NCBI GenBank assembly: GCA_020746875.1
Contig: JAGTJL010000001.1
Location: 4,712,001-4,776,000, forward strand
DNA: 64,000 nt
Direction: 5' to 3'
From: Rhexocercosporidium sp. MPI-PUGE-AT-0058
Taxonomy: Eukaryota; Ascomycota; Leotiomycetes; Helotiales
This document shows, piece by piece, positions 13,206 through 50,209 of the stretch. The translations under genes were made by a program, and so were the position numbers. The notes beneath the pieces were generated by a model. That model had not been told where the DNA came from, ran no database searches, and saw nothing but the letters and a program-made list of their open reading frames with translations. Every line of letters begins with the position of its first letter. The first letter of the stretch is position 1.

Positions 13206-14002
13206 AATGTATCACGTGAAATCGAAGGCTCTAGAATAGAGCTTGATTTTTAAGACATAGAGAGCTCTAGAAGCTCTTCCTCATATATATAAACCTATTC
13301 TCGCTCTGCCTTTAGAAGAGTGAGGCACGCAAATACAAGAATTTGACATCTATTGCGTTCAGCAGTTATGTTAAGTAAGAATTAAGCATATTAGGTTAAC
13401 TTCAAAATAAAATATAAAATAAAACTCCAAATTATAGGTTATTGGAGTTTGTAAGCAGAGCAGAACTACCATTGATGATTTTCTCTAATTCTAAACAAAG
13501 AATGTATCAGAAACTAACATTAAATAAACCGTTCGGCACCCATTTCATATCCGCAATCTTTATTCTTTGACAACAAACGTAGTCCCCGAATCGATGCTAA
13601 GGGCTGATCTCCCAAGAGCGCTTCCGCAAATTCCCCATTCAGCTACATAATCTAGACAAACACCTTTTCTCTCTTCATTTCCAGACTACAGACCAGACAG
13701 ATGGCTCCGGCCGCAATTATAGGGACGTAGGCGAGTTGAATAGCTCTTGTAATACCATGGAGAGCTTCAGACGCTACTTAGCAAAAGAAATGAAAAGCAT
13801 TTTCAGTATGTAAAAAAAAACGTCTAGCTAATGTATAGTTTCCGTCCTAGTATTATCGTAAATGACTAGCGGATCGCAGGTGATTGCGAGGTTTTGTTGT
13901 GTAAACTAGGTAGTGCATGCAAGGAGGCTTAGAGCGGAGTTATTTTAAAAACACAGTTTCCTTGAGTAATAATAAATGAACGAGTACTTCCAAGGAATTT
14001 AT
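13206..14002. other. AT-rich intergenic
   Basis: No coding frame, RNA gene or clear repeat apart from a short inverted motif around 13241-13280 (CTCTAGAA / GAGCTC-rich). This lies 3' of the amidase gene. Confidence 0.4.
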
Positions 14003-16184
14003 TTATCTCCGTGATTTGTCCAAAGCCGCGACGACTTCCTCTGCGAGAGCGAGCACCTTCTCTTCTTCGAGCCTCCGACCAACAACTTGAACTCCAACTG
14101 GTGCTCCGTGAAACGTATCGGGGTCATCTTTTCACGAATTAGTCCTCGCTTCCATGTCGTGTTTCGTAAAACCCACTGGGCAATACTCACAAGTCTTCCA
14201 GACATTTTCGTCTAGCTCGCTTCCCGCAATGAAATCCTCTCGCCGAAGGTCAACCATCTTGTCAACCCTAGTTACTGGCACAACTGCTGCCGAGAAGTCG
14301 AGCACATTAAACACGCCCGTGTATCCAAAATACATGCCTTCTTTCGGACGGTAAGATGCCGTTGGGGAAGCAGGGATGATGATGGCATCTACCTTCCGGC
14401 CTGACTTTGTGATCCCTCCGGTGGAGTTCCAGTAAGCGAGATAGCGAGCTTGGTAGTTGTAGATCGCGGTTTGCAGTTCCCATAGCTCGTTGATGTTGGA
14501 GGTGGGGAGAGCTCCGAATTTTTCTCCGTATGATACTGAGAGTTGGGGTACTGGTGGCTCGCCTGATGCGTTCAGGACGTTGTGGATGTCTCTACCGCCA
14601 TCTGCTGCGAACGTGTTCCACTGTTGGCATTAGTTTTAGTAACTGTGGGTGTACAGGCACAACTTGGGTGTTGAAATACATGATAGAATACTTACTAGGA
14701 GTTGAAATGCCTCGGAATGCGACGGCGGTTCCCATTCAATGACCTATTTTACATTTAGGTTTAAGAATAAATAAAAATGGGGGGGGGGGGGGGGGGGGAG
14801 AATCTTCAAAGTGCTAATTCGCCGAAGGGAGCCAGTGACGAACCTCGTAACCTTGTGCTTTCAGTGCTAAAACGGTTTCTTCCACAGCCCGCAAAACAGG
14901 CGGATGCGGTGCTACGACACTATCAGTTCGCAATATAGCAAAGGTAAGCTTACCATCCTTCGCTCTGGACTTGACTTCTTCTTCTGCTGTCGTATTCCAG
15001 GGCAGAGCTATGACTTTTGGGTCCTCCAGCCAGGGCTCAGATTCAAGGATAAACCTCGTGAGGAGACGAAGGTCAGAAATGCTGTGGCCCATTGGGCCGA
15101 TAACGGACGGAACAGTGTTATGACCTTCCATCTGTAAAGCGGGCTATTAGTCACTGCCCTGAAGAGAGAGGTTGGGTAATTACACTATTTGCGACGCCAA
15201 GATAGGGTAGACGGCCATGAGAAGGCTTTAAGCCGTAGATACCACAGAATGCAGCGGGAACACGGATGGAAGCTCCAACGTCCGAACCAAGGCCGATTAT
15301 ACTGCCGCGAAGAGCAAGTAATGCCGCTTCGCCTGTGAGAGAAAGAGTTCAGTATGAAACCGTAGTTCATACGGGGCTTCACAGAAGAGACTTATTTAGG
15401 GTTTCATACCTCCTGAAGAGCCTCCGGAGGATAGCAGACGATTGTAAGGGTTGGTTGTATATCCGATGATATTGTTATTCGTCTCAATGGCCTTTCAGTA
15501 AATCAGAATTACAGCTGAACTCGACTTTTGGAAAAAGGAAAAGGAGAGGGGTGATGTTACCATGAGGCTAGTCGGTACATTTGTTTTGACAAATATAACT
15601 GCCCCAGCCTTTCTCAGTTGCTTCACCAACAGCGACTCCGTGTCTTCCGTCTCTTTCTTCCCCAGCCATGCTACATATCCAACGGAGGTTTCCGTGCCCT
15701 TTACCCTGAACTGGTCCTTCAGTGAGACTGGTAGACCATGGAGAGGGCCCACGGGCTTCCCATATGTGCGGAAATAGTCATCAAGTTCTTTTGCACGATG
15801 AACGGCCTCTTCGAACATAACTTCACTAAGACAATTCACCTAATAACATCCTGTTGTCAGTACTTGTGGGTGGTCATGAAAAAAAGGAAAAACCAAAAGA
15901 AAAGAAATGCTCACCAATTGGTGTGCAATGGTTGCACGGTGGCAAAATGCTTCCGTGACTTCCAACGAAGTGAGCGCACCATTCTGCAGACCCGCAATTA
16001 GCTGAGCAGCAGTGAGCCGTTCCGTGAGCTCAATTTCACGTTTGGTCAGGAAGTTTTTGGGGAGGTTCGCGACATCCCGATCGTCTGGGTTGAGTTGGGC
16101 TTGCCCGATCTTCCAATGCTCAGGAAGTCGAGAATTGATGCTCTCGCGCTTTTCAGCGGATATTTTCTGCCACGCTTCTGACAT
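14003..16184 (-). CDS. Amidase signature (AS) family hydrolase
   Basis: Spliced model: complement(14003..14127, 14191..14620, 14696..14743, 14844..15131, 15184..15332, 15410..15491, 15561..15839, 15915..16184); 556 aa, all seven introns keep frame. The AS fold is marked by [12 protein letters not shown] (catalytic Lys), SSGGSSGGE (cis-Ser region, split by an intron) and [23 protein letters not shown] (nucleophilic Ser in the signature). GPMGHS and the C-terminal [12 protein letters not shown] also fit. It is closest in character to fungal acetamidase/fatty-acid-amide-type enzymes hydrolysing a small amide. There is no signal peptide. It sits next to, and might belong to, the secondary-metabolite region, but nothing ties it to the NRPS directly. 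Confidence 0.93.
14744..14843 (-). repeat. Amidase intron carrying a 20-base homopolymer
   Basis: The fifth intron of the amidase gene contains an uninterrupted run of 20 G on the + strand (14779-14798), i.e. poly-C in the transcript. It sits 36-55 nt upstream of the 3' splice site. Such a tract is length-unstable and could affect splicing. Confidence 0.7.
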
Positions 16185-16478
16185 TGTTGGGTATTGGATG
16201 AAAGTCAAGTCAAGGAGAAAGTATCGAATAGTCACTCTGCAGAAGGAGAAGGAATCGCGGTATCTTAGGAAAAGAAGGGTTCGGTTCCAATTGCCTCTGC
16301 TGAGAAATCAAAACAACGACCTGAGTGAGGCTGGATCGTCTGTTCTCGCCCTAGGCCCGAAACTTTGACAACACGTATCTTTCGTACTTTAGGCACCACT
16401 TCATGCTCGACGCTCGACGGTGTCTGGTCAAATTAAGCTTTTCCTGGGCTGCAAGATCCCCCTGCAGTGCTACAGTAC

Positions 16479-16936: not shown

Positions 16937-17992
16937 ATGGCAGCCCCACACGCCCTGACCTTTGCTCAGACAAGCAGCAACCCTGGCGAACACCTCCACT
17001 TGGAGAGCTTCCCCGACCCGAGCCAGGAGGAGCTAGCGGCGACGTCGGTCCTCGTCAAGCTCCTGGTCGCCGCCATCAACCCGCAAGATCTCCTCGTGCT
17101 CACGGGCCGCTATCCGGTCCAGCCGCTCTACCAGCTGCCAGGCGGGCGTGGGCACGTCGCGGGCTTTGACGGCGTGGCCGAAGTCGTTCGTTGCGGGACG
17201 GCTGTTGACATGCTGCGGCCCGGCGATCGGGTTATTCCGAAGCGACACGGGCTGGGGACTTGGCGTCCGGTTGCGGTATGGCCCGCAGCCGACCTGCATC
17301 GCATCACGCCCCAGATCGACGTCGCGGCTGCGGCTGTCCTGCGCATGAGCGCCCTACCCGCTTTCCTGCTTCTCGAAGACATGTGCAGACTCAAGCCGGG
17401 AGATTGGCTCATCCAGAACGCCGGCAGCAGCGCAATCGCGCAATTGGTTGTCCAACTGGCGCGGCTTCGCGGCGTGCACTCCGTGAGCGTCATCCGGGAC
17501 GGGCCGGGGGCTGCCGCCACCAAAGTTGCCCTGGCAGGTATGGGCGCTGCAGTCGTCCTCACGGAGTCGCAGCTGGACAATGCCGATGACGTCGCTGCGC
17601 TGGACTTGAAAGCAGGAGGCAAGCGTTTCGTGCTCGCGCTCGATGCCGTCTTTGGGCGGTCGGGCGAGAAGATCGCTGCTGTGCTTTCGCCGGGAGGCCT
17701 GCTGGTCAACTACGGCAGCCTGGGGGGGTCGACCTTTACCCTGACGCAGGAAGTGCTCTTCTGGAAACGCATCCAGTTGCGGAACTTCCGCTTGTCTGAA
17801 CAGCTCGGTGCGCGGACGCAGAGCGAGCAGGACGACGCCCTCCGCTGGCTGGAGCAGCTTTTCGTCGCAGGAAGACTGGCACCACCTGTACTGCAGAGTG
17901 TGAGGTGGGATGCGCAGGTGCTGCGGAACGTAGTGGAGGCCGTTACGACGGCTGAAGTGGGTGCGCGGAAGAAGCTGCTTGTTTTCGTTTGA
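16937..17992 (+). CDS. MECR/ETR1-type 2-enoyl thioester reductase (MDR family)
   Basis: Single exon, 351 aa, taking the second ATG (MAAPHALTFAQ). An earlier in-frame ATG at 16883 would add 18 residues. The protein follows the mitochondrial enoyl-thioester reductase pattern: INPQDLLVLTGRYPVQP, GFDGVAEVV, PGDRVIPKRHGLGTWR, LPAFLLLEDM, PGDWLIQNAGSSAIAQLVVQ (nucleotide-binding loop) and SVSVIRD. Family role: NADPH-dependent reduction of trans-2-enoyl-CoA/ACP. No clear mitochondrial presequence is visible, which fits a cytosolic or cluster-associated copy. The gene is strikingly GC-rich (63% and 67% in two 60-base lines I counted, against 42% in an NRPS line) and intronless, and repeats lie on both sides. 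Transfer or relocation is plausible. Confidence 0.85.
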   Translation: MAAPHALTFAQTSSNPGEHLHLESFPDPSQEELAATSVLVKLLVAAINPQDLLVLTGRYPVQPLYQLPGGRGHVAGFDGVAEVVRCGTAVDMLRPGDRVIPKRHGLGTWRPVAVWPAADLHRITPQIDVAAAAVLRMSALPAFLLLEDMCRLKPGDWLIQNAGSSAIAQLVVQLARLRGVHSVSVIRDGPGAAATKVALAGMGAAVVLTESQLDNADDVAALDLKAGGKRFVLALDAVFGRSGEKIAAVLSPGGLLVNYGSLGGSTFTLTQEVLFWKRIQLRNFRLSEQLGARTQSEQDDALRWLEQLFVAGRLAPPVLQSVRWDAQVLRNVVEAVTTAEVGARKKLLVFV

Positions 17993-19240: not shown

Positions 19241-19452
19241 CAGTCCTCCTCCCCGTCCCAACGTTATTCGGCGGATACTTTTTTCTCGGCTGCTTTTACG
19301 GTAGCAAAGTTGCTTCCCCTCACGGTTGCTCTGTCAACATACTAGATTAATTTCCGTATATTCTTTGTCTAATTATAAGGCAGCCTGAAATCTGCCCCTT
19401 TTGCGTTTAAGTGATCTCCACCGTATAACGTTAGGGCGGGGGAGGGGGGCTG
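19241..19452. mobile_element. MITE-1 copy A (212 bp, TA target duplication)
   Basis: The element begins CAGTCCTCCTCCCCGTCCCA and ends with the imperfect reverse complement of this, GGGCGGGGGAGGGGGGCTG. It is flanked on both sides by TA (19239-19240, 19453-19454). Arms of about 36 bp share AACGTTAT. It has no coding capacity. TA duplication fits Tc1/mariner-type mobilisation. Confidence 0.75.
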
Positions 19453-20285: not shown

Positions 20286-21704
20286 ATGCCATCGACCCTT
20301 TCGGTAAAGGATAAGAGGAAAGAATCTGGAGAACCGTTTACGGACAGCACCTTGGATGTGCCAACTCAGCCTGAGGCTACCAATCCAGTCCCAAATCAGA
20401 TTCCCAACGGTGGATTGCTGGCATGGCTTCAAGTCATCGGCGCATTCTTTCTCTTCATGAATTCCTGGTAAATGAACCCTTTCCAAGATTCTTGTTCTAC
20501 CATCTAAATGTCTTCTCTAGGGGTGTCACAAACGCCTTTGGTGTCTATCAAGCATACTACGAGACGGATCTCCTCAAAAACGTATCAGCGTCTAATATTT
20601 CATGGATTGGTTCCTGCCAAGCATGTCTCCTCCTCATAATCGGCGTCATCACCGGTCCTATCTACGATGCTGGATACTTCAACAGCCTCCTCATTGCTGG
20701 GTCTTTCTTGGTTGTTTTCGGCATGATGATGACGAGCATCGCAACCAAATTCTGGCAAATATTGCTAGCACAAGGTCTCTTCATTGGCTTTGGGAGCGGC
20801 TGTCTATTCATACCAAGTGTTGCTATCGTGTCAACGTACTTCAGCACAAAAAAGTCATTTGCAACTGGCATTGTAGCAAGCGGCAGTAGTATCGGTACGT
20901 CAAGCATACCACATTCTTCAGGGCACCAGTACTAATTTTAATTGTTACATAGGCGGTATCATATATCCGATCATTTTCCATCAATTGCAGCCGCGTATTG
21001 GATTTGGATGGGCGACTCGAGTTATCGCGTTCATCATGCTTGCTACGCTTGCCGTATCCATGTCTGTTTTGAAGGCTCGCGTAAAGCCTTCGTCAAAGCG
21101 TCAACTCCTCCAACTCTCGGCATTCAGAGAGATCCCCTATACAATGTTCGGTGTAGCCGAATTCCTTGGATTCATGGGTCTTTACATCCCCTTCTTTTAC
21201 GTTCAACTTTACGCCTCTCAGAAGACGGATATGAGCGGTACCCTGGGATTCTACATGCTTCCCCTTCTCAACTTCGCCTCGATCTTTGGCCGTATTATTC
21301 CGAACTTCTTAGCCGACAAGATGGGTCCATTCAACATTCTCATTCCATGCTCTCTTATATCAGCTGTCCTGGCATTTTGTTGGATCAAGATTAACACCAC
21401 TGCCGGGCTCATCATCTTTTGCATTTTTTACGGATTCTTTTCCGGTACCTTCGTTTCATTGCCTCCAACGACGGTAGTGAGCCTGTCGCCAGATATGGGG
21501 GTTGTGGGAGTCCGCATGGGGATGAGTTTCTCGCTGGCAGGTCTGGGATTGCTTATTGGAAACCCTGTTGCTGGCGCGATCCTTGGGTCGGGTAGCTGGC
21601 TAGGCGTTCAAGTGTTCTGTGGAGCGTCTGTAGCGTTGGCAGCTTTGGCGTGCATTATTGCGCGGATCTCAAAAGTTGGGCCAGAATTGCTCGTAAAGGC
21701 ATAG
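20286..21704 (+). CDS. MFS transporter, monocarboxylate (MCT) type
   Basis: Spliced model: 20286..20467, 20521..20894, 20953..21704; 435 aa, frame kept. A short hydrophilic N-tail is followed by about 12 hydrophobic segments. PNGGLLAWLQVIGAFFLFMNSWG, NAFGVYQAYYE, STYFSTKKSFATGIVASGSSIGG and YPIIFHQLQPRIGFGWATRV are hallmarks of fungal MCT-like MFS proteins. Members of this family in gene clusters often export or import small organic acids or metabolites, at the plasma membrane. Position: upstream of the NRPS and on the same strand, so export of the peptide product or uptake of a precursor is a reasonable inference. No substrate can be read from sequence. Confidence 0.92.
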
Positions 21705-21865: not shown

Positions 21866-22707
21866 TGATCTTTCCTGCTCTTTCGACATATATCTTCCTT
21901 CTCCTGTACTTAGAACCCTCGTAGTTGACCTGAAAATATCTTGATTACTACCGTTACAACCCCATGAGGAAGGTTTTTTCTTCTTCCGGTTTTCCCCCTT
22001 ATAGGGAAGGGGATGGGTCTCTATATTTGCCTTGGACAGATAACGCCATCTAGGAGAATTAAATTTGAACTTCAATTCTCCTGATTAACTAATTAAATCA
22101 AAAACAAGACTAAGTGATTCTTGTTGCATTAAAAGTTAAATCTTGAAAGCTAGCCAAGAGATCATATTTCTCAGTGAAATCTTGCTAAGGCCACTCAATC
22201 CTGGAACTTTCAGACGATCCTTGACCAGCTCGCGCGAGCCTATAATTCTCCGACAGATTCAGCCGACAGGGGAGATCCTATGGAAATTGGTCGGATTAAC
22301 TCTATTGAGATTAATCATTTGGGTGAGATCATATACCCGGACCCGAGCAAGGAGGATCTCAACGACGTTCAAGCACAGTTGAACGTTGTTTCAACATTTG
22401 GGCGTACGAAATGAGGTAATATTTCTGCAGATCCAGGAGATCTCTTGGTCAAACGCTCCCTGCATTGAAGAAAGTCTTAAGAATTCTTGCCAGAGCGAAT
22501 ACTCCGTGGGGCAAAATATATTCACCCTTTGTTTGGGAAGGTCGGTCTGCAAAGGCAGAGCCTCCACTTCTTGTGATTTTGAGATATGCATGGGACAAAA
22601 GATCGCTCATATAGAGTTTCTCGATCAAACGTTTAAAAATGGACCCGAAGAACCTAAAGTTTCATTTACTTTGGTACTCGGGGTATTATGTCCTGCCAAG
22701 ACTTCTA

Positions 22708-23190
22708 CTATCCCCCCCCCCCCCTTAACAAACGTTAAACCGTACCTTTTGTGGATCAGAACCCTGGAGAGCTTGCTCTACTAGAGCCCTGGTAACCTCA
22801 ATGCACAGGCCAAAATCTGATCAGTTGTAAGAACCAGGGTGGCTGTAGAAAGTTTTAGCACCTGGCGAAGGCTGAAAGCAGCAGAATTTACAGTAACCTC
22901 CCCTGTCCCAATGTTATTCGGTGGGGACAATTTGCCTATCGGTTAAACGCAAAAGGGGCAGATCTCGAGCTGCTTTGTAGTCAGACAAGGGGCGTACGGA
23001 ATTCGAATTTGGTATGTTGACAAAGCAACCGTGAGGTGATATAACTTTTGCCACCTTTAAAGCAGCTGAGAAAAAAAGTCTCCACGTATAACATGGGGGG
23101 TGGGTACTGTAGTGGTCAGACGCTCTTGTTCGCTACCTATACGTTGTCCAAAATTTGTGTGTTTTAACGTTTGTTAAGGTGGGGGGATAG
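22708..23190. mobile_element. TIR element (483 bp) inserted into repeat R
   Basis: The left end starts CTATCCCCCC and continues into CTTAACAAACGTTAAAC. The right end is the reverse complement (GTTTTAACGTTTGTTAAG ... GGGGATAG). TA is present at 22706-22707 and 23191-23192, while the uninterrupted copy of R has one TA at this point. Non-coding. It carries MITE-1 copy B inside. Confidence 0.8.
22891..23109. mobile_element. MITE-1 copy B (219 bp), nested
   Basis: Reverse-complement relative of 19241-19452: shares CTCACGGTTGCT, GTCAACATAC and ATCTGCCCCTTTTGCGTTTAA. The ends are CAG...CTG with TA on both sides (22889-22890, 23110-23111). It is inserted inside the 483-bp element and is strongly diverged from copy A. 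Confidence 0.75.
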
Positions 23191-23576
23191 TAGAGGTTTC
23201 TTTAAAGCCAGGGGGTTTCAACCAATAGATTTTCCGGATTTCGAAATTACTACCAAATCAAGTAAATTCCAGATGTCGAGACTTTGGACTTATTACCGGA
23301 TGGCAGGAGTAGCCTACGTATTGGACGGAAGGAAATATTCTACTACCGAGCTTGTTATTCTTTTGGGCAGTTAGATGGGCCTCTGAAAGAGCCCCTGCTC
23401 GATAATTAGATATACAAAGTATAAGTCTTTCGTGGCTTTTTCTTCTATCGGAAAACATTCTCCATAGAATTCACCTGCCTCCTCCGATCTCTTGAAACCT
23501 TCCCATATCGTTGCTTCATATAGCCATCACTATCTCCAGAAAGACTTCAAAATTGTCCAAAACACTACTTTTCCAT

Positions 23577-26500
23577 ATGGGTTCTCTATGTTTTGACGAG
23601 AACATGCACTCTCACCATAATGGAGAAGGGTGGTTTCGTATTCAGATGAATATGTCAGCCTTCTCGATCTCAGATGAGGGAAAGTTACTTCTGGGATACA
23701 AGGCAATAAATTCCAAGTGTAAGTCCTCCCAAAAAGTTTCGGGTTCCTTTAATCTAGCTGGTATAAATGTTCATAATTCATTACTAACATGTTAGAATCC
23801 AGTTCCGTTTCTCCAGATGGGCGCAAATTTGAGTTATCAATCCATCCTGAATTCCAATCTTTCCTCCTCAATCGTCACCGACAAAAGCATTCCAGCTCGC
23901 CTTCCTACACCTCCAACTATGTCAGGAACACCATTTCAATCGGAGTCGCCGCCAAGGAGCCCTCCATTGCTTTCTATCAAAGACAGTAAAGCTCGCTTGA
24001 CTCTCGGCACATCCAACCAGCCTAGCAACGAATCGATATTGACTCTCGATGTCCACCGGACACTATTTGATCAATTTTCTCTAAATTTGATCAACTCGGA
24101 TCTCAGGAATGGGAAATTGAGCCGCGATCTCGAGGGCTTGGCATCTAAGCACCTGAGTGGGAGCAAGTCTTTTTGGGGTTCTGTCCTCTACGGAGCTGCC
24201 CCTAAATCCGCAATCCCATGGAAACACATTGCCGATGAATATATCTTGTCCAGAAACAGGATGTCGAGAAAAGTCAAAATGGAGCTATCTGCCTTGAACA
24301 ATCTGCAAATGTTTAAAACTTCCTCCGGCTTATCAGAAAAATTCTTGCTGGAAGCCTTGTGGGTCGTCGTTCTCTACCACCATACCGGAAGCTCCAATAT
24401 TCTCTATGCATCAGCTGGGAAAGACGCCAACGTCGCCGCGCCCTGGATTCTAGATATTTCCCCAGATTGGGTGTATCCAGTTCAGCTATCAATAAACCCT
24501 GACTTGACACTCGATGCCCTTGTTAAGGCAATTGCGTCATTCAAAATCTTGGCCTCTCCGAACGCTTACCTGGGATATGATGAGATACTATCAAGCGCCG
24601 CAGCCCTCAATATTGAAAGCTTCTTCAAGTACTCTACAGACACGACCATATCTTCATCAGCCGAGCATTTCAAGAGATTCCCCATGGCACTGGAGGTTTC
24701 TGGTTCTCATACCATCAATATCAGCTTCGAACATGGCCGTCGGATTGATCCAGAAGATGCAGCAGTCCTTCTTCAGCACTACTGCAATACTGTCCAGACT
24801 GTCCTGAATACAACTGGTTTCTCAAACTTGGCCATCAACGAAATTGGGATCGATTCCAAAGATGAATCTCAAGGCATTATCTACCAAGCAAAGAGTTCTG
24901 CTATCATCGAACCCACAAACATTGTCAAGATGTTTGAGGAGCAGGTTAAATCTCAGCCGTCGGCACCTGCTCTCCAGTTTGAGCAACAACCGCCTTTGTC
25001 ACACGACCAACTCAACCGACTGTCCAACCTGATTGCTCGGAAACTCTCTATCAAGAAGGGAACAATCGTTCCTATTTGTATGGATCGTTCCACTGAACTC
25101 ATAGCCTGCATTCTGGCAGTCCTTAAATCTGGAGCGGCGTATGTCATACTCGATCCAGAAAGTCCTGTGTCACGAAACACCTTCATCATCAATGACTGCG
25201 AGGCGGAGCTCGTCCTTGCTCACCGCAGAATTTCACATAATTATGAGAGAGCTTGCATTATCGAGGATCTACTTGCGAAGGTAACCGAACCATCGTTTCA
25301 AGGGGATGATTCCAATTTATCTCTGAATATTGATTCAGAAAACACTTCCTACCTCATCTATACCTCAGGGTCAACCGGGGCTCCCAAGGGCGTGCTGATA
25401 ACTCACCGGGCTGCAACAAATGGAATTTCCCACTTTTCGCTCGGTGGGAAAATGCGCTGGCTACTCTTCTTCAACCCGATATTTTCCGCTGCACAGCGAA
25501 CAATGCTCGCCACTTTAATCAAAGGTGGCACGCTTCTCCTTGCCAGTAAAGAGAAACTGTCAGCTTCCCTTGCAGATGTCATCAACAGTATGGAGGTAGA
25601 TTCCCTGGGTATAACCCCATCGGCTCTCTCCCTGATTTCACCATCAGAAGTGACAAAACTCAAACAAGTCACATTGATTGGAGAGGTCATACCCCAGGAT
25701 ATTGTGAAGACGTGGGCTGGACATGTCGAGCTTCGGAATAATTTCGGACTGAGTGAATGCACGCAACTAAACCTTGGATCCAGATTATTACCCGGTAGCA
25801 ACCCTCGGGTAGTTGGCAAACCTAGAGATACTACGTGTGCCTACATTCTTAGGCCTGGAGGCGTTCAGATGGCTCCTCTTGGCACAACTGGTGAACTCTG
25901 CCTTGCAGGGCCCCAACTTGGTTCTGGGTACCTCAAGAACCCCGAGCAAACAGCAACAGTCTTCATCGACAATCCGTTTGGCACCGGAAAGCTCTACCGG
26001 ACTGGAGATGCAGCAAAATGGCATGCTGATGGATCTATTGAGATTGTTGGGCGAATAGACTTTCAAATCAAGATCAATGGCCAGCGAATAGAGCCCAAAG
26101 AGATTGATGAAGCGATGAGGAAGTCCAGTCTAGTAAGGGATTGCCTGACAGTGGCAGCTTCCATTGACGACCGAAAGGTTCTGGTTGCTGGCATTATCCT
26201 CAATGAGAGAAGTAGCTGGCAAGAGTCCATCCCACTACTCCGTCAGCACATGGAAACTCTGGTACCGGCGTACATGGTCCCATCGTTCTGGATGCCACTG
26301 GAGAATATTCCAGTCAATGCTAATGGCAAGGCAGACGTTCCAAGAACCCGCGAACAGGCTGAGCTTCTTGGCCTGGAGGGGCTAGTACGACCTCTACGGC
26401 CTCTGCGCCAAACGGAACCAAACGACGAGATTTTACACGAAGCTGAAACTAATCTTCGCAATATTTGGGCCCAAATACTCAAGGTTGATGCTGAGACCAT

Positions 26501-29500
26501 TTCTCGAGATGACTCATTTCTCGTTCTTGGGGGTGATTCTCTCCAAGCACTTCGGGTTATCGTTGCTTTGCGGAAGCAGAACTACAGTGTCACACTTGGG
26601 GCCGTGCTCGGAAGCAAGTCTTTGAGCGAGGCGGCGAAAGCATGTATCCCAATTCTAGGCGGATCAAACGAAGACGCGAAGCCCTTTGAGTTGTTGAATG
26701 ACTCTGCGACATTCGGCCAGCAAGCTGGAATAGGAATCGCTGATGCATACCCAGCAACACCCTTCCAGGAGAGTTTGGTTGCAGCTTCACAGAAAGGCTT
26801 GACTATGTACAATTACCAGCGGGTCTGGGATGTGAGCAATGCAAATATTGGAAAGTTACAGAGTGCTTTCGCGTATGTCATGGGCAACAACGAGATCCTC
26901 CGGACTTCATTTGTCTCTGATGGGAACGGAATTGTTCAGACTGTGAAAGAATCCACGGATCTCCCGTGGTCACATGCATCCAGTTCTCTCGAAGATTTTC
27001 TCATCGCCGATAAAGCCAAGGGATTCCTCTTGGGAGAAATTTTCTGGAAGCTCACTCTTGTGAATCAGACACTGCTGGTGGTAACAATGCACCATGCACT
27101 CTTTGATTTCTGGTCACATAGATTTCTGTATGAAGATGTTGCTGCAAGATATCTTGGCAAGTCGGTTCCAAAGAGAACACCTTTCAGGCGATTTGTTAAG
27201 CACTTGCTGCAGAGAGACACCGCGAAAGATGATAAATTCTGGATAAAATACCTCTCTGGTGCCGAGCGCTCCATTTTGAACAACTCCCCGGTCCCAGAGA
27301 GAGTCAGTTTAACTCGAAATCTGGACTTTGACCTGAGTTTAGCCGCCACTAAGTTGAAACTCACACCGAGCTCAATCATTTATACGGCGTGGGCCATTCT
27401 CCTCGCTCAGCGCCTAGGCAACAATGACGTCTCTTTCGCAACCACACTTTCTGGTCGTGATACCCCGATTTCTGGAATTGAGGATGTTGACGGGCCAACA
27501 ATGACAACTGCAATGCAGCGAATCGTGGTCGACCCAAAACAATCAGCGACCAGTCTAGTCACGATGGTTAACAAACAATTCTTTGAGCTTGTGGAACATT
27601 CACAATTGGGTTTGCATAAGATATTGTCCTCGACAGGCACTCACTTGCAAAACTTCGACACACTGATCAACATCTTGGTAAGAAAGGAGGAAGACGAAGA
27701 TACGACGGCACTATTCAAGCGTCATGGTGAGAAAGCTGCATGGGAGTCAGAATTTACCAGTATCGATGTTGAAGATGTTCCCACTGGTACAACACTCCGG
27801 ATCTCAACAAATATGGAGAGCCGTCGGGCTTCATTCATCCTAGAATCTCTCGCCATTACTATCAAGGCAATCCTTGATCATCCAACTCGGGAGATAGGTT
27901 CAATGGCACTAATGGGGGAAAACGAAATCGACTTTCTCAGCAACGAAATCTCGAACAGGAATACTTTGGTCGTACCAGAGCCGGCTTTGCTTCAATCCCT
28001 CTTCGAGAAGGAAGTTGAGAGAGCACCAGGTACTATTGCGATCGACTGGGACTCGGAAACATTGATCACATATCAGCATCTAAATACAATGGCTAACCAA
28101 CTTGCGTCCTGCCTGATCGTAAATGGTATCCACCCAGGGGACACGGTTGCTTTACTTCTCGACAAATCTGTGGACACAATTGTCGCAGTATTGGGAACAA
28201 TGAAGGCGGGGGCTGCGTACGTTCCTCTCAATCCAGACGCTCCTGTGGAGCGAAATGCTTTCATTATCGAGGACGTGAAATCCAACCTAGTTTTGGCGCA
28301 TCGAACTCACACAGAGCATATCGATACTCTTGGCGCCACCTCGTTGTACATGGAAGATCTGAGACTGGTTGAATATCCTTCCCATCGTCCTACCGTTCAA
28401 GTTTCTCCCTTGAATCTCGCTTACGTCATATACACATCTGGTAGCACTGGGAAGCCCAAAGGAGTCCGAGTGCCCCATGCCTCAGCTCATTCTGCAGTCG
28501 TGAGCATGCTGAATGCTGAAGGTCGTTTTAAGGGAGAATGGCGCACACTTCAGTTCGCTAATTACGTTTTTGATGCCTCAGTTCAAGATATCTTTAATAC
28601 ACTAAGCTCGGGGGGGACGCTCTGTATGGCCCCAGCTGAGAAAATGATGTCGAATATCAGTGGCGTTATCAACCAAATGTCTGTCAATGCAGCAATCCTG
28701 ACACCTACCGTCGCAAAGCTATTCAAACCAGAAGACGTTCCAACGTTTGTCACTCTCATCGTGGGTGGCGAGCCGTTGACGCCAGATGTTATTCAGACTT
28801 GGGCACCAGGCCATAGGGTCCTCAATGTCTATGGTCCAACAGAAACGTCAATGGTGGTAACCAAAAAAGTCGTTACGGGCGATGGCCACCCTAGCAATAT
28901 TGGAAAGCCCTTTCCTACGGTTGAGGCGTTCTTGCTTCATCCCGACGGAGACAACCTGGTTCCATACGGATCCATTGGCGAGCTTTGCATCAGCGGACCA
29001 CAGGTCACTGGCGGCTATGTTAACATGGAAAATTCTAGTAGCTTCGTCAAGCATGGGGGGCTCGGAAGTAAATCTCATATTTTGTAACTAACGGTAAATG
29101 CTTACTAACCAAACCAGTCAATCACATGTATCGGACAGGAGATTTGGCCAGGTGGCTACCAGGTATCCACTCAATATACCAAATTACCATATCAAGCGGA
29201 ATACTGATATTTTATTAGGACAAGAACTCCAGTGCCTCGGGCGTAAAGACTATCAGGTCAAGATTCATGGCCATCGCATCGAAATAGGCGAGGTCGAACA
29301 AGTGATCCTCAGGTCCGACGCAGTACATGATGCCGTTGTAGTTCTCGCGGAAATCAACCAAAAGCCCCAGCTCACCGCATTCGCAATTTTCAAAGATGGC
29401 ATTCAGGGTGACATGACCTACGAAAGCAACCTCGCCGAACTCAGGAAAGGCTTAAGTATGTTGGCTCCCTACATGGTTCCAAAAGCCGTTTTGCCAGTAG

Positions 29501-31261
29501 ATTCGTGGAGAAAGCTTCCCTCTGGTAAGGTAGACCGGAAGTTTCTGAAGAGTCAGGCCGAGCGAATGACTCTGAAAGAGATGTCTCGGTACTATATTGA
29601 TGGTGCTGGTAGAAAAGCTGAGGTAGTTCCCGTGACAAGTGAGGAGGAGAAGGATTTGGAAGAAATCTGGGCGAAGATATTCAATCTCCCCCCAGCTGAT
29701 ATCGGCTCTGCAGCTAATTTCTTCTCGCTGGGCGGCGATTCAATCTCTGCCATCAACATGGTTAGTTTGTGCCGCAAAGTTGGCTACGAGATGACGGTCG
29801 GCCAAATCTTGAAATTTCCTGTGTTGAAAGACATGGCTGCCAGGTTCACGAAGAAGGTTTCTGATGGTAAACTGAAAGAAGAGGAGATTTTCGTTCCATC
29901 AAACGAAGTAATTCAGGAGATAGAGCGGGTGGGGCTCAACATGAACTCCGATGTTGAATATGGTAAGATTGTCCTAGCTGCTTGCTTTAGCCTCGTAAAG
30001 TTTAGTCTAACAAAGCTGTCTTGCAGTATATCCGAGTCCTCCAGGCCAAGTGGAGTTCCTCAATCACGGAAAGCGCGACGGCCAATTCTGGGTGTTGACA
30101 ACTGTTCGAAAGCTTCCTAGTACAACAAATGTGCTGAAGTGGGTGGAAACCACGCTCCGACTGACAGAAGTCAACGATATACTGAGAACGACTTGGCTTC
30201 AAGTTTCAAACACTGAGTGGGTTGGCGTGGTACTCAAGCATTCGAACCTTCAAGTTACCTTCAACAATTGGAATACTGCGGAAGAGAGGGAGCGGATTAT
30301 CTCTCGAGTCCGAGACACCCGATTTTCCTTTGGCAAACCCTTCATTCGATACGATTTTCTCCGCAATACGTCAGAGCACAACGACGTCTCATGGGAAGTT
30401 GTTGTGAAAGTGGACCACGCCGTCTATGATGGAACACTCTTACGGATCTTCCAGGATCATTTCTCTGCCATTCAAAGTGGAGTTTCTCTTCCGCCGCATG
30501 AAAAATTCAAGGACTTCACGTCATTCATATGGAAAGAGAATAAGGGATCATCTTTAAGCTTTTGGAAGGAGTTCATGAAAGACAAGACATTCGTTTATCC
30601 TGCAATACCTACCCCTCAGATCACTCGAGCAATCGTCAAGGCGATCCCCATCAACCTTGACGAAGTATCCCAACTTTCCAATGTCACTGCATCTATCATC
30701 TTCCAAGCTGTCTTCCAAATTTGGCTCGCCCGCATTACGAAGCAAACAAATGTCGCCTTTGATTATCTTCTCAGTGGACGAAACGTGGCTCTGCCCAATC
30801 CTCAGAGTATCAATGGCAATCTCGCAAACATTTTGCCCTTCCGGTCCAATATTGTCAGCAATATGACAATACAACAATATTTAGAGGAGACTCAGTCCCT
30901 CTTTTGGGAAATCACTGAGAACGGAATGGTCGGCCTGGATAGCATTTACAATGCTGCTGGAGTCCAGAGACCACTGTACGGGAACAAAACCTTGTTTCTT
31001 TTTCAACCATTTGAGCCCAACAAGGGAAATTTGAGTGATGAGATGCAATGGGTCGTTATGGCAAAGTCTCAGGTGACGATGTATCAACCATATGGTCTAG
31101 TGGTAGAGGTATCAAAGGCCCTGAATGGATACAAACTTACAGTCATGTATGACGAGACACATTATGACGTGGCTGATGCAGAGGCCATTGCAGAGCAACT
31201 CCACTTGTTGCTGGAAGAGATGCTGGGGAATCTTCATGCACAAATAGGCAAATTTCTTTGA
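23577..31261 (+). CDS. Two-module NRPS, C*-A-T-C-A-T-CT
   Basis: Spliced model: 23577..23718, 23803..29067, 29118..29162, 29219..29962, 30027..31261; 2476 aa, in frame. An in-frame ATG at 23511 is an alternative start. Domains: residues 1-390, a C domain whose active site reads HRTLFDQ (about 132) instead of HHxxxDG. A1 follows, with YTSGSTGAPKG (about 566), FGLSECT in place of YGPTE, and GRIDFQIKINGQRIE; FSAA stands where FDAS is normal, so the Asp that binds the alpha-amino group is Ser. T1 has LGGDSL (about 957). C2 has HHALFDF (about 1144). A2 has YTSGSTGKPKG (about 1591), FDAS and YGPTE. T2 has LGGDSI (about 1989). The terminal C has DHAVYDGT (about 2195), fitting the xHxxxDxS/T pattern of fungal cyclising CT domains. 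There is no TE or reductase domain. Inference: it makes a cyclised two-unit product from a non-alpha-amino first substrate (for example anthranilate-like) and an amino acid. Confidence 0.93.
23719..23802 (+). other. First intron of the NRPS gene
   Basis: GTAAGT donor, branch site TACTAAC and acceptor CCAG. Using the nearer TTAG acceptor (23792-23795) would create a TAA at the junction, so the CAG at 23802 is the one that keeps the C* domain open. The exon before it adds the N-lobe of the first C domain. Confidence 0.75.
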
Positions 31262-37884: not shown

Positions 37885-38246
37885 AACAAGAGGTCATCCA
37901 ACCTTGGATTTTATGGCCACTAAAACTCCTGCAGAAATCTCGTAAACTAGATCATGGTGATTTCAAACACTGTACAGACTTATTTACATGACGTCATCCC
38001 ATTGCTCTCAAGAATAATGCTTCGTATCAACTCGACGGAAATGGACCTAACACGGGACAAAGAACATTGTAATTACTTAGTGCCACAACCTGCTGAACCC
38101 AGCTAAAAATCAAGTGCCCTTTGACTTGAGATTCCTTTGAACATGAAAACAATAGAGAATCTTGTTTCCCGGCCTTGTCCTAACTAGTGACATGAAGCCG
38201 CTGTAGATTCCAAATATACACGCTCGTAGTTACCAGCAGTACAAAA
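37885..38246. promoter_or_regulatory. Amidoligase promoter region
   Basis: 360 bp separating the relic from the amidoligase start. No recognisable site. Confidence 0.3.
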
Positions 38247-39782
38247 ATGCCCAAAAATGTCACGCACCCTCCTCTCTCCGATTTAGAAACCTCCAATCTT
38301 CTATCGAAACGCCAGCACCCACAGCTAACCTTCGGTCTAGAGATGGAGCTCGACTTCTCCGTCGCCCGCCATCTCTATTTCGATTGGCTCGCCACACTTC
38401 CCAACATCCCACCCTACCCCGATGACACCGACATGGACGATCTCCCTACCCGCTCTACTGACCACTGGGTCACAGCCAGAGAACGATACAACGACCGAAT
38501 CGTCTGGGGCCTACAAGATCCATCGCCAACATTCAGCCAAGCGACCTACAGTACAGAATCGACCGATTCGCAGGCATCAGCTAATCTCCGCCAGAACCTT
38601 CTTCAATACTTGCTGGCGTTCCTAAATCGCGAACTGTCTACTTCTAAGCAGGGGAAGATGTTGATTGGAAATGTGGTGTGGGGTGGGAATCCGAAGACAG
38701 CAATGAGTGAGGTCTGGACTGTAGTGAACGATGACAGCGTCGCACCTGGGAGGGAAGCCTACGGGCAGACATTCCAGCCTGCGCAGCCGTATCATGTGAT
38801 TAGGCAGTTCTTTCGGTGTGTGGGTGCGGAATTGGTTTCGAAGGTCTATGCTTTTGATGGGCTTGAGAATGAGGTGTTCCCGGCGCTTAAGGAACTCCAT
38901 GAGGATATGGAAGATGACTATCAGCATGGGGCATGGTTTACAGGCGAGACGCACCTTCATGTGCATTTTGGGATTGAGAACGAGGAGATCACACTGGAGT
39001 TGGCGCAGACGCTGTGTGCTCTGTACGGTCTGTTCGAGAACCAGATTGAGAGATTTGTGAAGAATTCGCAGAGGGAGTCGCCGTGGTGCAGACGGTTGCG
39101 GAAAGGAATGGAGGGGAGGCAGATGTATACGGCGCCGATTACTTTGACTGGCGACGTGGACCTTGCCATGAGACCCGAGCGAAGATACACACAAGAGGGG
39201 TTCACTGATGAGGTATACGATACCAGATCTCTGCAGGAGCTGAAATCTCTAATGAGTGGCTACTCGGCAGGGGAAGATATCCCAAACAAACCTATACCTA
39301 TACTTGGAGTCAGAGAGTGGACTGCGCTGAACATATCCGTAGCCAGAGACAACACACCAACGACGTTTGAGTTCCGCCACCACCACGGTACTTCCGACCC
39401 AGAGGAGATTAAATTCTGGGTACAATTATGTGGCAATATGTTGAGATTCGCATATTTACTCACGCAGTTGGGGATCAAGCTTAAGGATCCTGTGGCAGAT
39501 ACTGCGAATAATGGGAGTGGCCCTACTTGCTTAGAAGACTGGACTAAGAAGGATATCCTGGATATCGTTGGTATGTCGAATGAGGCAAAGGCGCATTTCT
39601 GGGCCCAGACCCAGAAATTCCACGATAATGCTAATGACAGCGAGAGAGACGTGGAGGAATGGATGATTGCAAAGAGAGTACAGAGACGCAAGGCTGGAGA
39701 GGAAACAGGAATTTTCATGGATAGTGAAATCGTGGCTAGCCCAGTAAGCTTTCGTCCTTCTCGAGTATCTCCGCGTCCCTAG
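38247..39782 (+). CDS. Putative amidoligase enzyme (Amidoligase_2 type)
   Basis: Single exon, 511 aa. The hallmarks of the fungal/bacterial amidoligase family (glutamine-synthetase/GCS-like fold) are in order: FGLEMELDF near residue 30 (metal-binding Glu pair), the central ETHLHVHFGIEN near 235 (His cluster), and TFEFRHHHGTSDPEEI near 375, followed by a helical C-terminus. Family knowledge: these enzymes use ATP to form an amide bond between a carboxylate and an amine, often on peptides or proteins. Substrates of the fungal stand-alone members are largely unknown. There is no signal peptide. A basic, Ser/Pro-rich tail ends the protein. It borders the repeat-rich accessory region, with no evident partner gene. 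Confidence 0.85.
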   Translation: MPKNVTHPPLSDLETSNLLSKRQHPQLTFGLEMELDFSVARHLYFDWLATLPNIPPYPDDTDMDDLPTRSTDHWVTARERYNDRIVWGLQDPSPTFSQATYSTESTDSQASANLRQNLLQYLLAFLNRELSTSKQGKMLIGNVVWGGNPKTAMSEVWTVVNDDSVAPGREAYGQTFQPAQPYHVIRQFFRCVGAELVSKVYAFDGLENEVFPALKELHEDMEDDYQHGAWFTGETHLHVHFGIENEEITLELAQTLCALYGLFENQIERFVKNSQRESPWCRRLRKGMEGRQMYTAPITLTGDVDLAMRPERRYTQEGFTDEVYDTRSLQELKSLMSGYSAGEDIPNKPIPILGVREWTALNISVARDNTPTTFEFRHHHGTSDPEEIKFWVQLCGNMLRFAYLLTQLGIKLKDPVADTANNGSGPTCLEDWTKKDILDIVGMSNEAKAHFWAQTQKFHDNANDSERDVEEWMIAKRVQRRKAGEETGIFMDSEIVASPVSFRPSRVSPRP

Positions 39783-40738: not shown

Positions 40739-41961
40739 CTAGACTTTTCGTCCATCCAGTCTACGTCCCACGCTAGGCTCGGGCTTCTTCTCCTCCTTGA
40801 CTTCCACTTTCTCATCTTTCTCGCGCTTGACACCACCCTTCAAAGTATGCCCTTGTCCAGCGAAATGAGGTTGTTGCGCATCGGCATTCTCCTTGTCCTT
40901 ATCGGCTTGTGTTTTCAATGGCTTAATCTCGTAACCAAAGAATAGCTTATTCGGCGCTAATCTTAGAGGCTGTGGGCCATTCGTTCGCCGGACTGCAGCT
41001 GCGGCTGGAGCGGGTGGGTTTGTGCTAGTTCCTGCGACGGGGGTGGATGCTTTGGGAGTAGGAGTTTTGCTGCTCTTCTTTGCAGAGAGTTTCTGGCCAC
41101 CGAGGAGAAAGTTGGAGGATACTGCTTTGGCACCTGCGAGAGCTGAGATTGAGGATGGGGCAATGGCGTCGTAGTTGATGGCTTGTGCCATGGTTCCTTG
41201 GTTATGCAACATTCCTCCTGCGGGCATACCATTTCCGGATCTGGGGGTGGATGTTCCGCTTGTTCGGGTGGGTTCGACATATCCAACTGGAGGTGCGAAA
41301 TCTACTTCTACATCTGTCTCCATTACGCAAACTCCCATCTTGTCACTCTCTGGCTTGACCTCCAAGACCGCCACATCGTAGATGGTATCGTTGTATTTGA
41401 AGGAGAAGATATCGCCCTTGGTGACGGTGGAGAAGTTCCGGAAGGCTTTCTCAAGAACGGCTTTTGGGTCGGAGATCTCGAGGAAATTGACATCTTGGGG
41501 TTGGAGTTTGACGAGAGAGGCGAGGGCAAGGTCGGTGGAACGGATTTGGATCAGGTCACCGGTATCGAGGAGAAGAGCTTGCATCATCTGCTTGTATTAG
41601 GTATCACCCCTCATCGCGGGGTGGAAGAACGTACCCAGTTCGGCAGATACAACTTTCCTTCCTCAGCAATGAACTCCAATACACCACAGTGAGTCGTTCT
41701 GTCCATCTGGCCGTTTGTGAGCTCGAAGAGCATGGGGTATGTGATGTGTAGTCTGGTGAGCTTCTCGAGCGCCGAGGGTGGCATAATAATCTTTCCGCCA
41801 TAGTTCAGATCCTCTCTCTCGGGGCCAGGGAGCATGACTGTTGGATAGCAGCGGTAGTATTCGTCGAAGCGCTTGGGAGGACCTCGCATGCCGCCTCTTT
41901 GCAGCATTTGGTACATCGCCATCGGATCATCTTGCTCGTAGTAGTTTCCAAAAGACTGCAT
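40739..41961 (-). CDS. ufd1: Ubiquitin fusion degradation protein Ufd1
   Basis: Spliced model: complement(40739..41587, 41635..41961), 391 aa. The N-terminal double-psi barrel shows FDEYYRCYPTVMLPGPEREDLNYGGKIIMPPSALEKL and YPMLFEL. FIAEEGKLYLPNWMMQALLL spans the intron, and DVNFLEISDPKAVLEKAFRNFS and GDIFSFKYNDTIYDVAVLEVKP follow. The disordered C-tail carries the Npl4/Cdc48-binding segments. Role: substrate adaptor of Cdc48/p97 with Npl4 in ubiquitin-dependent extraction. The extreme N-terminus is ambiguous. Either MQSFGN starts at 41961, or an upstream exon consisting of only the ATG (42005-42007) joins through a 48-nt intron with TACTAAT and CAG to give MSFGN. Confidence 0.95.
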
Positions 41962-42303
41962 GGTTATTAGTATTTGCCTTTCTTCTTTTGGAGGGCGAAC
42001 TAACCATCTTGAAAGTATTTTAGGTAGTGTGAGAAGAAGAGGGAGGTATGTGTGTGAAGAGAAAGTGCCAAACTATTCGAGGAAGCAGAAGAAGTGGTGG
42101 TGGTTTTAAAAAGAAGCTCGAAGCTCCCAAAAGTCCAGATGACGTTCTCTTGGTTGTGCATGACTGCCGGATAATCTAAACGCCGAAATAGTAGCCTTGC
42201 ATTCCAACCCAACTCTAACCTAGATTTACTCAAAGCCAATCTCTGTTCGACTGGGATATCAAACAACCACAGAACTAAATCAATGGTTCCCTAAATAAAC
42301 ACA
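41962..42303. promoter_or_regulatory. Shared promoter of ufd1 and lin1-like genes
   Basis: The two housekeeping genes diverge from a common region of about 0.3 kb with pyrimidine-rich tracts towards ufd1. No classical TATA box is seen. Confidence 0.45.
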
Positions 42304-43749: not shown

Positions 43750-44064
43750 GTAACGGAATCGGGATGCATGAGCATGACTAAATGATACCCAAAAGGAAAT
43801 GAAAAATAAAAGTACAGATTTGATCTCGCTTGATTTGACTTGACAAAATATCTTGGGAGCACAACTCAAATTCTTGAAAGTACACTTAATTGCATGTGGA
43901 CCTTGTCTACTTTTACAGTACAGCTTGTTCTACCATGTCATGTCATCTCGTCCCATTTTCCCTGTGCCAATTCCGTTCTACCTGCCTCAGCAAGGCTTTT
44001 TGGGAAGCAATTCAATTCATACACCCAACGCCACGAAATCGAGCCACAACCAAGAAAGTTCAAA
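43750..44064. other. Intergenic, convergent 3' ends
   Basis: 315 bp between the lin1-like and rvb2 stop codons. Nothing else seen. Confidence 0.5.
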
Positions 44065-46655
<2,591 letters not shown>

Positions 46656-49600: not shown

Positions 49601-50209
49601 CTTGAAAAGGATGTTGCGGCTTTCAAAGGTGAAACCTCAACAAGTCTTACAGACCTTGGTCGACAGACCACTGTCCTAGGCGAAGAGCTTGGGAGCACCT
49701 TTTTCGAACTGAGGAGTTCAGGTGAAGATCTTGATAGCAAGGTCAACGATTCTATCGAAAAGGTCAATACTCTCATTGAGAAGGTCAAGGGAATCGAGAA
49801 GAAGGTCGATAGTCTTGTCCAGAAGCAGCAACAATACACTGCACCCAGAATAATCCAACCTCCCAACACTGCCTCAATCTCCCGCCATGCTTTTCAAAAT
49901 CCAGGACCTGTTCACCCGCCGTCCGCCCCCACGAATCGACATGCATCGAAATCGACCAACCGTCAAGCATCGATATCAAGTGACACCAATAGTGTTTCTG
50001 CAAAGCGGAAACGACCGCAGCTTAACGGTCGCGGTTCGGGCAGTCCACCAAAATCCAACGGATTCAAACGTAGCGAAAGCTCCCGCGGTAGTCCAAACCC
50101 CAAGCGTAGGCGCCGTACTAGGTTCGACGACGACGACTCAGACCAGGACCCCGATTACGAAGATGAAGGCGATCCGCAACCAGGCATCTCGGCACACGAG
50201 GACGAGTGA
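46656..50209 (+). CDS. Large coiled-coil protein, function unknown
   Basis: Spliced model: 46656..46968, 47070..50209; 1150 aa. The N-terminal 150 residues are Ser/Arg-rich and disordered (RARHTDRSRSPQRDRF). Residues about 215-1000 are dominated by heptad-rich coiled coil with many Gln, Leu and Glu and repeated short motifs such as IESRVATIEKL and IEHRISALEQE. The C-terminus is basic then acidic (SPNPKRRRRTRFDDDDSDQ...YEDEGDP), resembling a nuclear localisation signal plus acidic tail. I do not recognise a defined family. A nuclear structural or scaffold role is a guess from composition. The start was chosen at MSKDRRQSD because the upstream frame is low-complexity leader. Confidence 0.8.

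Follow-up and report, generated by a model that had tools for sequence, protein, structure and literature searches.

The window examined here, a 64,000 nt stretch of Rhexocercosporidium sp. MPI-PUGE-AT-0058, contains a gene for a bimodular non-ribosomal peptide synthetase (NRPS) which has Ser in place of the usual Asp in its first adenylation domain and ends in a condensation domain, and the question it raises is which acid starts the chain and how the product is released. Anthranilate-starting synthetases such as TqaA combine a first adenylation domain for a non-amino acid with a CT cyclase and no thioesterase. The NRPS resembles them in having an A1 of the non-amino-acid type and a terminal C domain with no thioesterase, and an earlier sequence-only reading had proposed an anthranilate starter and a benzodiazepinedione-like product on this analogy. 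Comparison with relatives leads elsewhere: the enzyme is a SidE-type bimodular synthetase, with fumarate probably as starter, probably joined to one amino acid.

Gene model, relatives and the first condensation domain

The features of the locus are listed in Table 1. The reading frame is intact, with no internal stops in the conceptual translation of the five exons. The junction between exons 1 and 2 is predicted, having been picked by frame and splice signals, and gains support from the alignment of exon 1 to related proteins (GWFRIQMNM...YKAINS under QWCRVRIIL...WRQISY). The public model of this gene lacks the T1 stretch predicted here. A Pfam scan of exons 2, 4 and 5 (E cut-off 0.001) found two AMP-binding stretches, two PP-binding domains and two Condensation domains, the middle and the last. 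No thioesterase was found in exon 5, where Condensation was the sole match, and the next plus-strand ORF of at least 150 aa begins at 38196. The sequence-only reading had described this five-exon C-A-T-C-A-T-C layout, the lack of a thioesterase downstream, the motifs HRTLFDQ, FSAA (with Ser), FGLSECT and DHAVYDG, and a canonical A2, and all of these were confirmed, A2 having FDAS.

Table 1. Features of the NRPS locus (positions are those of the window)
Feature	Position	Strand	Description	Basis
MFS transporter gene	20286..21704	+	1.9 kb upstream of NRPS, possible partner only; ATG at 20286	PF07690 on two pieces
NRPS gene	23577..31261	+	5 exons, C*-A1-T1-C2-A2-T2-C3, 2476 aa	gene model, Pfam
NRPS exons	23577-23718, 23803-29067, 29118-29162, 29219-29962, 30027-31261	+	stop within last exon	
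C*	23577..24887	+	degenerate first condensation domain (aa 1-409), HRTLFDQ at 24054	alignment, Foldseek
A1	24930..26342	+	adenylation domain (aa 424-894), code SARGTINQLK, putative fumarate activation	Pfam, alignment, tree
A1 pocket start	25485..25499	+	S235-A236-A-Q-R239 (FSAAQR) in place of FDxS	alignment
T1	26436..26642	+	carrier domain, LGGDS at 26526	PF00550
C2	26736..27935	+	condensation domain, HHALFDFWS at 27090, putative amide former	PF00668
A2	27996..29544	+	adenylation domain (spans introns 29068-29117, 29163-29218), code DAQIIGVMVK, FDAS at 28569	Pfam, alignment, tree
T2	29629..29847	+	carrier domain, LGGDS at 29728	PF00550
C3	29959..31258	+	terminal condensation domain (intron 29963-30026 within), DHAVYDGT at 30413, putative product release	PF00668, tree

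No clear set of tailoring genes was found by Pfam among 37 selected ORFs outside the NRPS in the window. Besides the nearby MFS transporter gene, the scan picked up, at greater distance, ORFs resembling alcohol dehydrogenase and Amidoligase_2 and one amidase-like exon.

The family set consisted of 169 proteins from two lists (best 120 of each), near-copies included, and counts drawn from it are not a census; 148 proteins including the window were aligned and 136 rows entered the full-length tree. The closest record among the matches listed is P0001 (99% identity over 97%). Both the protein search and the 136-row tree show that the whole A-T-C-A-T-C core is homologous to proteins named SidE, and identity to P0131, a SidE-type protein from A. 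lentulus, is 45% for A1, 46% for A2, 45% for C3 and 37% for C2. The SidE-type group is widespread in fungi. Bacterial relatives were sought in a contig collection by an exact-match scan with the degenerate pattern N-P-x-F-S-A-A-Q-R-T, and the 6 loci recovered look like chance occurrences, since tblastn of A1 on them gave no match better than E 0.99.

The first condensation domain, C*, gave no Pfam match at E 0.001. Its approximately 409 aa align with full-length relatives, sharing 21-26% identity with five of them, and what is absent is mainly the part bearing the first C motif. Strict HHxxxDG was found at this position in 0/91 rows with a complete motif there, of the 148 aligned among the matches listed. 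The best Foldseek matches to C* in a model of exon 2 only were C-domain proteins (query TM 0.5-0.6; mean pLDDT 76), giving only a rough fold, as confidence is low over the first 110 residues and superposition is poor (rmsd 9-15 Å in the top rows). With exon 1 alignable to relatives and the frame uninterrupted, C* is a decayed yet apparently translated domain, and a truncated domain or pseudogene was ruled out on the same grounds. Hence the analogy drawn earlier with truncated N-terminal C domains stands as far as the inert look goes and fails as to simple truncation. C* is vestigial in that its motif is lost and its sequence decayed, and it would presumably be inactive.

The adenylation domains and their substrates

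Alignment gave A1 the same code, SARGTINQLK, as had been read by eye, and 8/10 residues are common with the SARGTVSQLK of the SidE-type rows P0131-P0133 and P0137. Among the 148 aligned proteins (matches listed, window included), S235 is present in 147/148 (one gap) and A236 in 147/148, while R239 and Q330, both found in the window, occur in 148/148 each; with S235 and R239 so constant, the FSAAQR motif cannot be put down to chance. As a control, 18 long examples of the 64 A-domain matches in the same genome were compared, and 15/18 have Asp at 235; the best-scoring other A domain there is 33% identical to A1. In a tree whose rows held no anthranilate A domains (AnaPS, TqaA, AspA, TzpA), A1 lies inside the SidE A1 clade (15/15 rows, SH-aLRT 100). 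The earlier view that A1 should take an acid lacking an alpha-amino group was right, S235 standing where Asp normally does, and the choice of anthranilate was not borne out by this clade and the SidE-type code. The grouping of A1 with SidE, the conservation of S235, A236, R239 and Q330, and the fumaryl products of SidE and AlSidE together point to fumarate as the most likely substrate, and the invariant Arg239 would suit the second carboxylate of a diacid. It would be an easy mistake to read the loss of Asp235 from an A domain of a bimodular fungal NRPS as a sure sign of anthranilate specificity; the SidE type is recognisable by FSAAQR with its Arg239.

A2 retains Asp235. Among the matches listed, its code DAQIIGVMVK occurs in 71/148 rows, including the window and its own record, and the SidE A2 code DVYFTGGVLK in 19/148. 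The former occurs in Ascomycota, and two basidiomycetes, Amylostereum and Taiwanofungus, have a version of it with one letter changed. The two codes differ at 7/10 positions, which suggests that the second residue is probably other than alanine. Across the 148 listed proteins the code positions give 31 different 10-letter strings, two of them gapped. The A2 code resembles the code for Gln in bacteria, except that Ile/Val stand in both acidic positions, perhaps indicating a medium hydrophobic residue, though this was given no weight.

SidE of A. fumigatus is described as producing fumarylalanine. AlSidE of A. lentulus (A-T-C-A-T-CT) is reported to form fumarylazlactone in vitro, the compound being found in the wild type and absent in the deletion strain, and was presented as the first NRPS known to its authors to synthesise an azlactone (PMC11101550). 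A racemic product, which would speak for an azlactone, is reported for AlSidE. The NRPS shares with the AlSidE/SidE rows (P0131-P0133, all from A. lentulus, two of them named SidE) the A-T-C-A-T-C order, an A1 code of the form S-A-R-G-T-x-x-Q-L-K, HHALFDFWS in C2 and a terminal motif without SHxxxDx14Y, that of P0131 being of the same kind as in the window (DHGLYDGTLLRIFGEHFEAYQ versus DHAVYDGTLLRIFQDHFSAIQ). A1 falls in one clade with P0131, and C3 in one with P0137, which is nearly identical to P0131. Unlike SidE, the NRPS keeps an extra degenerate N-terminal C domain, where P0131 has 42 aa ahead of A1 and all 19 exact DVYFTGGVLK rows among the matches listed have <100 aa, and its A2 code is not DVYFTGGVLK. 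Hence, neither of these SidE-orthologue features, the A2 code and the missing N-terminal C, was found in the NRPS. It shares both the C*-A-T-C-A-T-C order and the A2 code with relatives from Penicillium, Aspergillus, Colletotrichum, Fusarium, Lasiodiplodia and Cladonia, among others, the best being 46-47% identical to it among the matches listed. However, the first C of the five aligned members of this group retains its N-terminal part, whereas that in the window is without the first C motif. The retained degenerate first C and the different A2 code set the NRPS apart from SidE, within the known SidE kind, its substrates and product being predicted from the family.

The terminal domain and product release

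In C2, HH and D of the motif are present in 147/147 rows with a complete motif among the matches listed. A quick C-domain tree, built from 67 of 97 prepared domains and with no CT of a named enzyme among its rows, places C3 inside a SidE-type terminal clade (14/14 terminal domains, SH-aLRT 100) and C2 likewise in a family clade (SH-aLRT 100). C3 lies apart from a four-row SH group that includes L009 and L018 (SH-aLRT 93), with the SH domains L005 and L007 elsewhere, in a tree whose deep branching is weak.

The signature SHxxxDx14Y marks CT domains of the TqaA type. It was found in 0/139 family rows among the matches listed, and the window has D-H at its start and Q at the place of the Tyr, while SHSQWDG...Y is visible in the TqaA rows aligned with CT-like C domains from the same genome. 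Two such domains have TqaA as best match (2.1e-38 and 2.2e-44). In contrast, the best TqaA match of C3 is at 2.0e-4, and its match to surfactin synthetase is stronger (2.5e-14); its predicted model (pLDDT 90.6) has surfactin C structures as nearest folds. Of the earlier claim of a terminal cyclising CT domain, release by a terminal C without a thioesterase, quite possibly with ring closure, survives as a prediction, and assignment to the TqaA type is not supported. The benzodiazepinedione is unsupported, with C3 far from the TqaA CT and the AlSidE ring an azlactone, and a chain begun with fumaryl would lack the aryl amine that such a closure requires. 'Cyclising' here probably means azlactone formation.

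The best explanation, to which we assign a probability of roughly 0.6, is a SidE-type synthetase using fumarate and an amino acid other than alanine, with release probably as an azlactone. A1 would activate a C4 diacid, by family likeness most likely fumarate, its second carboxylate held by Arg239, and load it on T1; A2 would load an alpha-amino acid, probably not alanine, on T2; C2 would form the fumaryl-aminoacyl amide; and C3 would free the chain, most likely as the azlactone if AlSidE is a guide. The azlactone could then hydrolyse to the free acid or react with other metabolites. SidE is said most likely to require no further enzyme (PMC12390756), so the pathway should be testable with one gene.

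Other readings differ in the release step, the starter or the second residue. C3 might instead join the tethered chain to a free amine or hydrolyse it, with no azlactone formed. In the chrysogine-type ftChyA, also bimodular, the terminal C forms a separate clade and its motif starts with an unusual residue (PHxxxD), and this ftChyA-CT is reported to take an untethered nucleophile (PMC9622831), namely anthranilate; the missing SHxxxDx14Y and the surfactin-like fold of C3 would fit. Unlike the NRPS, whose A1 is without Asp235, ftChyA is described as taking Glu and Ala at A1 and A2, and C3 belongs to the terminal clade of SidE, where AlSidE yields an azlactone, so that we consider this release rather unlikely. 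Up to the release step it coincides with the best explanation. A starter other than fumarate, namely a different small diacid or unsaturated acid (succinate or mesaconate, for instance), is suggested for A1 by I and N at positions 301 and 322, where SidE has V and S, by the variability of position 322 among the 148 listed proteins (T 64, S 57, A 14, N 8, other 4, gap 1), and by the account of sorbicillactone A, in which labelled fumaric acid was not incorporated into the fumaryl part; with S235, R239 and Q330 common with SidE, and G278 also as in SidE (G 121/148, D 24, E 3 among the matches listed), it seems improbable.

A true SidE function, converting fumarate and alanine to fumarylazlactone and fumarylalanine, would agree with the architecture from A1 on, the A1 signature and the terminal C clade, and the 10-residue code is reported to predict fungal substrates with variable success (PMC11253843). 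Only 3/10 A2 code residues are common with DVYFTGGVLK, though, and both types occur in A. pseudonomiae (P0141 for one, P0005/P0010 for the other), which makes them paralogues; they fall in separate starred clades of the full-length tree (61 rows at 99; 39 rows at 100), and we regard this function as quite improbable. Least plausible by far is the anthranilate starter with a benzodiazepinedione product: bimodular anthranilate synthetases are described (PMC7448278), and the lost Asp235, the degenerate first C and the terminal C without a thioesterase would all suit one, but it was rejected on the SidE-clade A1 with its invariant Arg239, which TqaA does not share, and on the distance of C3, which lacks SHSQWDG...Y, from the TqaA CT.

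Beyond this locus, we tentatively suggest, at a little under even odds, that the NRPS belongs to an extensive family of azlactone synthetases in fungi which has so far gone unrecognised, with a constant fumarate module and a constant azlactone-forming terminal C, in which the second module has switched amino acid many times, the alanine-using SidE being derived and the DAQIIGVMVK enzymes an older, uncharacterised type, together furnishing a range of reactive fumaryl-X azlactones, which would combine spontaneously with other metabolites. Adducts between pathways are described as demonstrated in the case of fumimycin, and a similar origin has been argued for sorbicillactone A. If the NRPS works like AlSidE, this reactive chemistry would span the Ascomycota and at least two basidiomycetes, with the starter conserved and the second residue variable, and metabolites credited to one pathway may in fact have arisen by the joining of products from different pathways.

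Gene model and domain organization

The Rhexocercosporidium genome that holds the window is 62.7 Mb long in 60 contigs (the genus belongs to the Helotiales), and the five exons of the NRPS gene encode a predicted protein of 2476 aa with no internal stops. Among the best 120 matches, the closest protein record was P0001, the public record of this NRPS from Rhexocercosporidium sp. MPI-PUGE-AT-0058 (99 % identity over 97 % of the query), which is identical to our model except for gaps at the N-terminus (86 residues) and around the LGGDS of T1 (31 residues). Because the DNA frame is open at those places, the gaps are read as a probable annotation slip, and T1 may go undetected when domains are searched for in the public record.

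Pfam searches identified two AMP-binding stretches, two PP-binding domains, one AMP-binding_C domain and two Condensation domains, and the degenerate first C domain (C*) gave no Pfam match at E 0.001. The domains are arranged as C*-A1-T1-C2-A2-T2-C3 and a thioesterase is absent, as the sequence-only reading had it, and every NRPS motif quoted there was found in the window. The specificity codes, with positions located via motifs and residues read by alignment, are S-A-R-G-T-I-N-Q-L-K for A1, the same as the code made earlier by eye, and D-A-Q-I-I-G-V-M-V-K for A2. The Ser proposed to replace Asp in A1 does so at position 235, consistent with the alignment to LgrA.

Assignment to the SidE family

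Some of the relatives found in the whole-length search carry the names 'nonribosomal peptide synthase sidE' or 'Nonribosomal peptide synthetase 3'. When one of the SidE-named relatives served as the query of a second search, the matches also included SidE-type proteins from Penicillium and from Aspergillus section Fumigati. The best 120 matches of each search gave 169 proteins (170 sequences with that of the window), and the 148 that are 1950–2800 aa long were aligned. S235 and A236 are each present in 147 of the 148 rows (the remaining row has a gap), R239 and Q330 in all of them and K517 in 146. When a tree was built from 48 A domains (15 family A1, 15 family A2, and 18 others of the Rhexocercosporidium genome, being the long ones among 64 matches), the family A1 domains formed a single group (SH-aLRT 100) holding the window A1 and those of the SidE-type comparison proteins P0131 and P0137. 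Asp is found at 235 in 15 of the 18 other A domains.

Of the 91 aligned rows with a complete motif in the first C domain, 71 have Arg and six have His at the place of the second, catalytic His, and none has a strict HHxxxDG. The C* of the window shares 22–24 % identity with those of relatives P0006, P0009 and P0059, whereas the same pairs share 51–57 % in A1 and 36–44 % in C2, as expected for a domain under weak constraint. C* is missing from 42 of the 148 rows (<100 aa ahead of A1), some of which may be partial gene models. These include all 19 rows with the exact SidE A2 code DVYFTGGVLK. The window enzyme differs from SidE both in having a degenerate N-terminal C domain and in its A2 code. 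Elsewhere in the genome, a C domain of another NRPS (L033; contig C4, 2213000–2215500) has SHMQFDG and long low-complexity inserts.

The exact code DAQIIGVMVK is found in 71 of the 148 rows, the window and P0001 counted, and codes other than this one and DVYFTGGVLK are mostly in small groups. In a FastTree phylogeny of 136 rows (12 were dropped as too gappy), it is also present in distant branches, which suggests, for a midpoint-rooted tree in which several long branches meet, that this may be the older A2 state. As A. pseudonomiae carries proteins of both types, SidE and the window type are paralogues.

Neighbourhood of the NRPS gene

Features in and around the NRPS gene
Feature	Position	Strand	Remarks
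Probable amidase gene	14000-16200	-	7–9 kb upstream of NRPS; extent by eye; weak PF01425 on one exon, under curated cut-off
Alcohol-dehydrogenase-like gene	16937-17992		single ORF, 351 aa
Partial repeat copy	near 19257-19445
MFS transporter gene	start 20286	+	same strand as NRPS
MITE-like repeat	22701-23197		between MFS gene and NRPS; 40-nt inverted ends, 80 % complementary
NRPS gene	23577-31261	+	five exons
T1 region with gap in P0001	26400-26700
Amidoligase_2 ORF	38196-39782		PF12224, E 1.2e-12; 7 kb downstream of NRPS; no link to NRPS seen
Conserved housekeeping genes	40742-58745		UFD1, GYF domain, TIP49 (RuvB-like), DUF382/PSP, triose-phosphate transporter family

The 37 ORFs of the window that were searched in addition to the NRPS showed no recognisable tailoring cluster, in keeping with a SidE-type enzyme, a kind of synthetase that most likely works without further enzymes (PMC12390756). 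The MITE-like repeat ends approximately 380 bases ahead of the NRPS start and has 28 further partial matches in its own genome (72–86 % identity, mostly to its middle 200 bases). The alcohol-dehydrogenase-like gene has a GC content of 0.647 (0.481 for the window) and a third-position GC of 0.75 (0.502 in the NRPS); foreign origin or unusual expression is possible.

Proposed product and mechanism

Fumarylalanine is the reported product of SidE, which incorporates fumarate (PMC10478498, PMC12390756, PMC6737921, PMC4283610), and the predicted product of Fusarium NRPS43 (PMC10455376). AlSidE, with the topology A-T-C-A-T-CT, produces fumarylazlactone (PMC11101550, section 7), which was present in the wild type, absent from the AlSidE deletion strain and also detected in vitro; AlSidE-derived fumarylalanine is racemic, and to its authors' knowledge this was the first azlactone-synthesising NRPS (PMC11101550). 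Sorbicillactone A has been argued to originate from the same fumarylazlactone; earlier feeding work, in which labelled fumaric acid was not built into its fumaryl part, counts against fumarate as the direct precursor (PMC10894215). In the accessible literature on fumaryl/fumarylalanine and azlactone/oxazolone fungal NRPSs, subscription journals being mostly outside reach, we found no characterised member with the DAQIIGVMVK type of second module.

We propose that A1 would load a diacid, most likely fumarate, for which the evidence is strong at family level, and that A2, judging from its code, would load an alpha-amino acid that is probably other than alanine. C2, in which the HH and Asp are intact in all 147 rows with a complete motif, would form the amide, and the terminal domain C3, by analogy with AlSidE, would release the product, most likely as an azlactone; C* would play no catalytic part. 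We place the window enzyme among the SidE-type synthetases; it has kept a degenerate C domain, and its second module is of a different, widespread kind.
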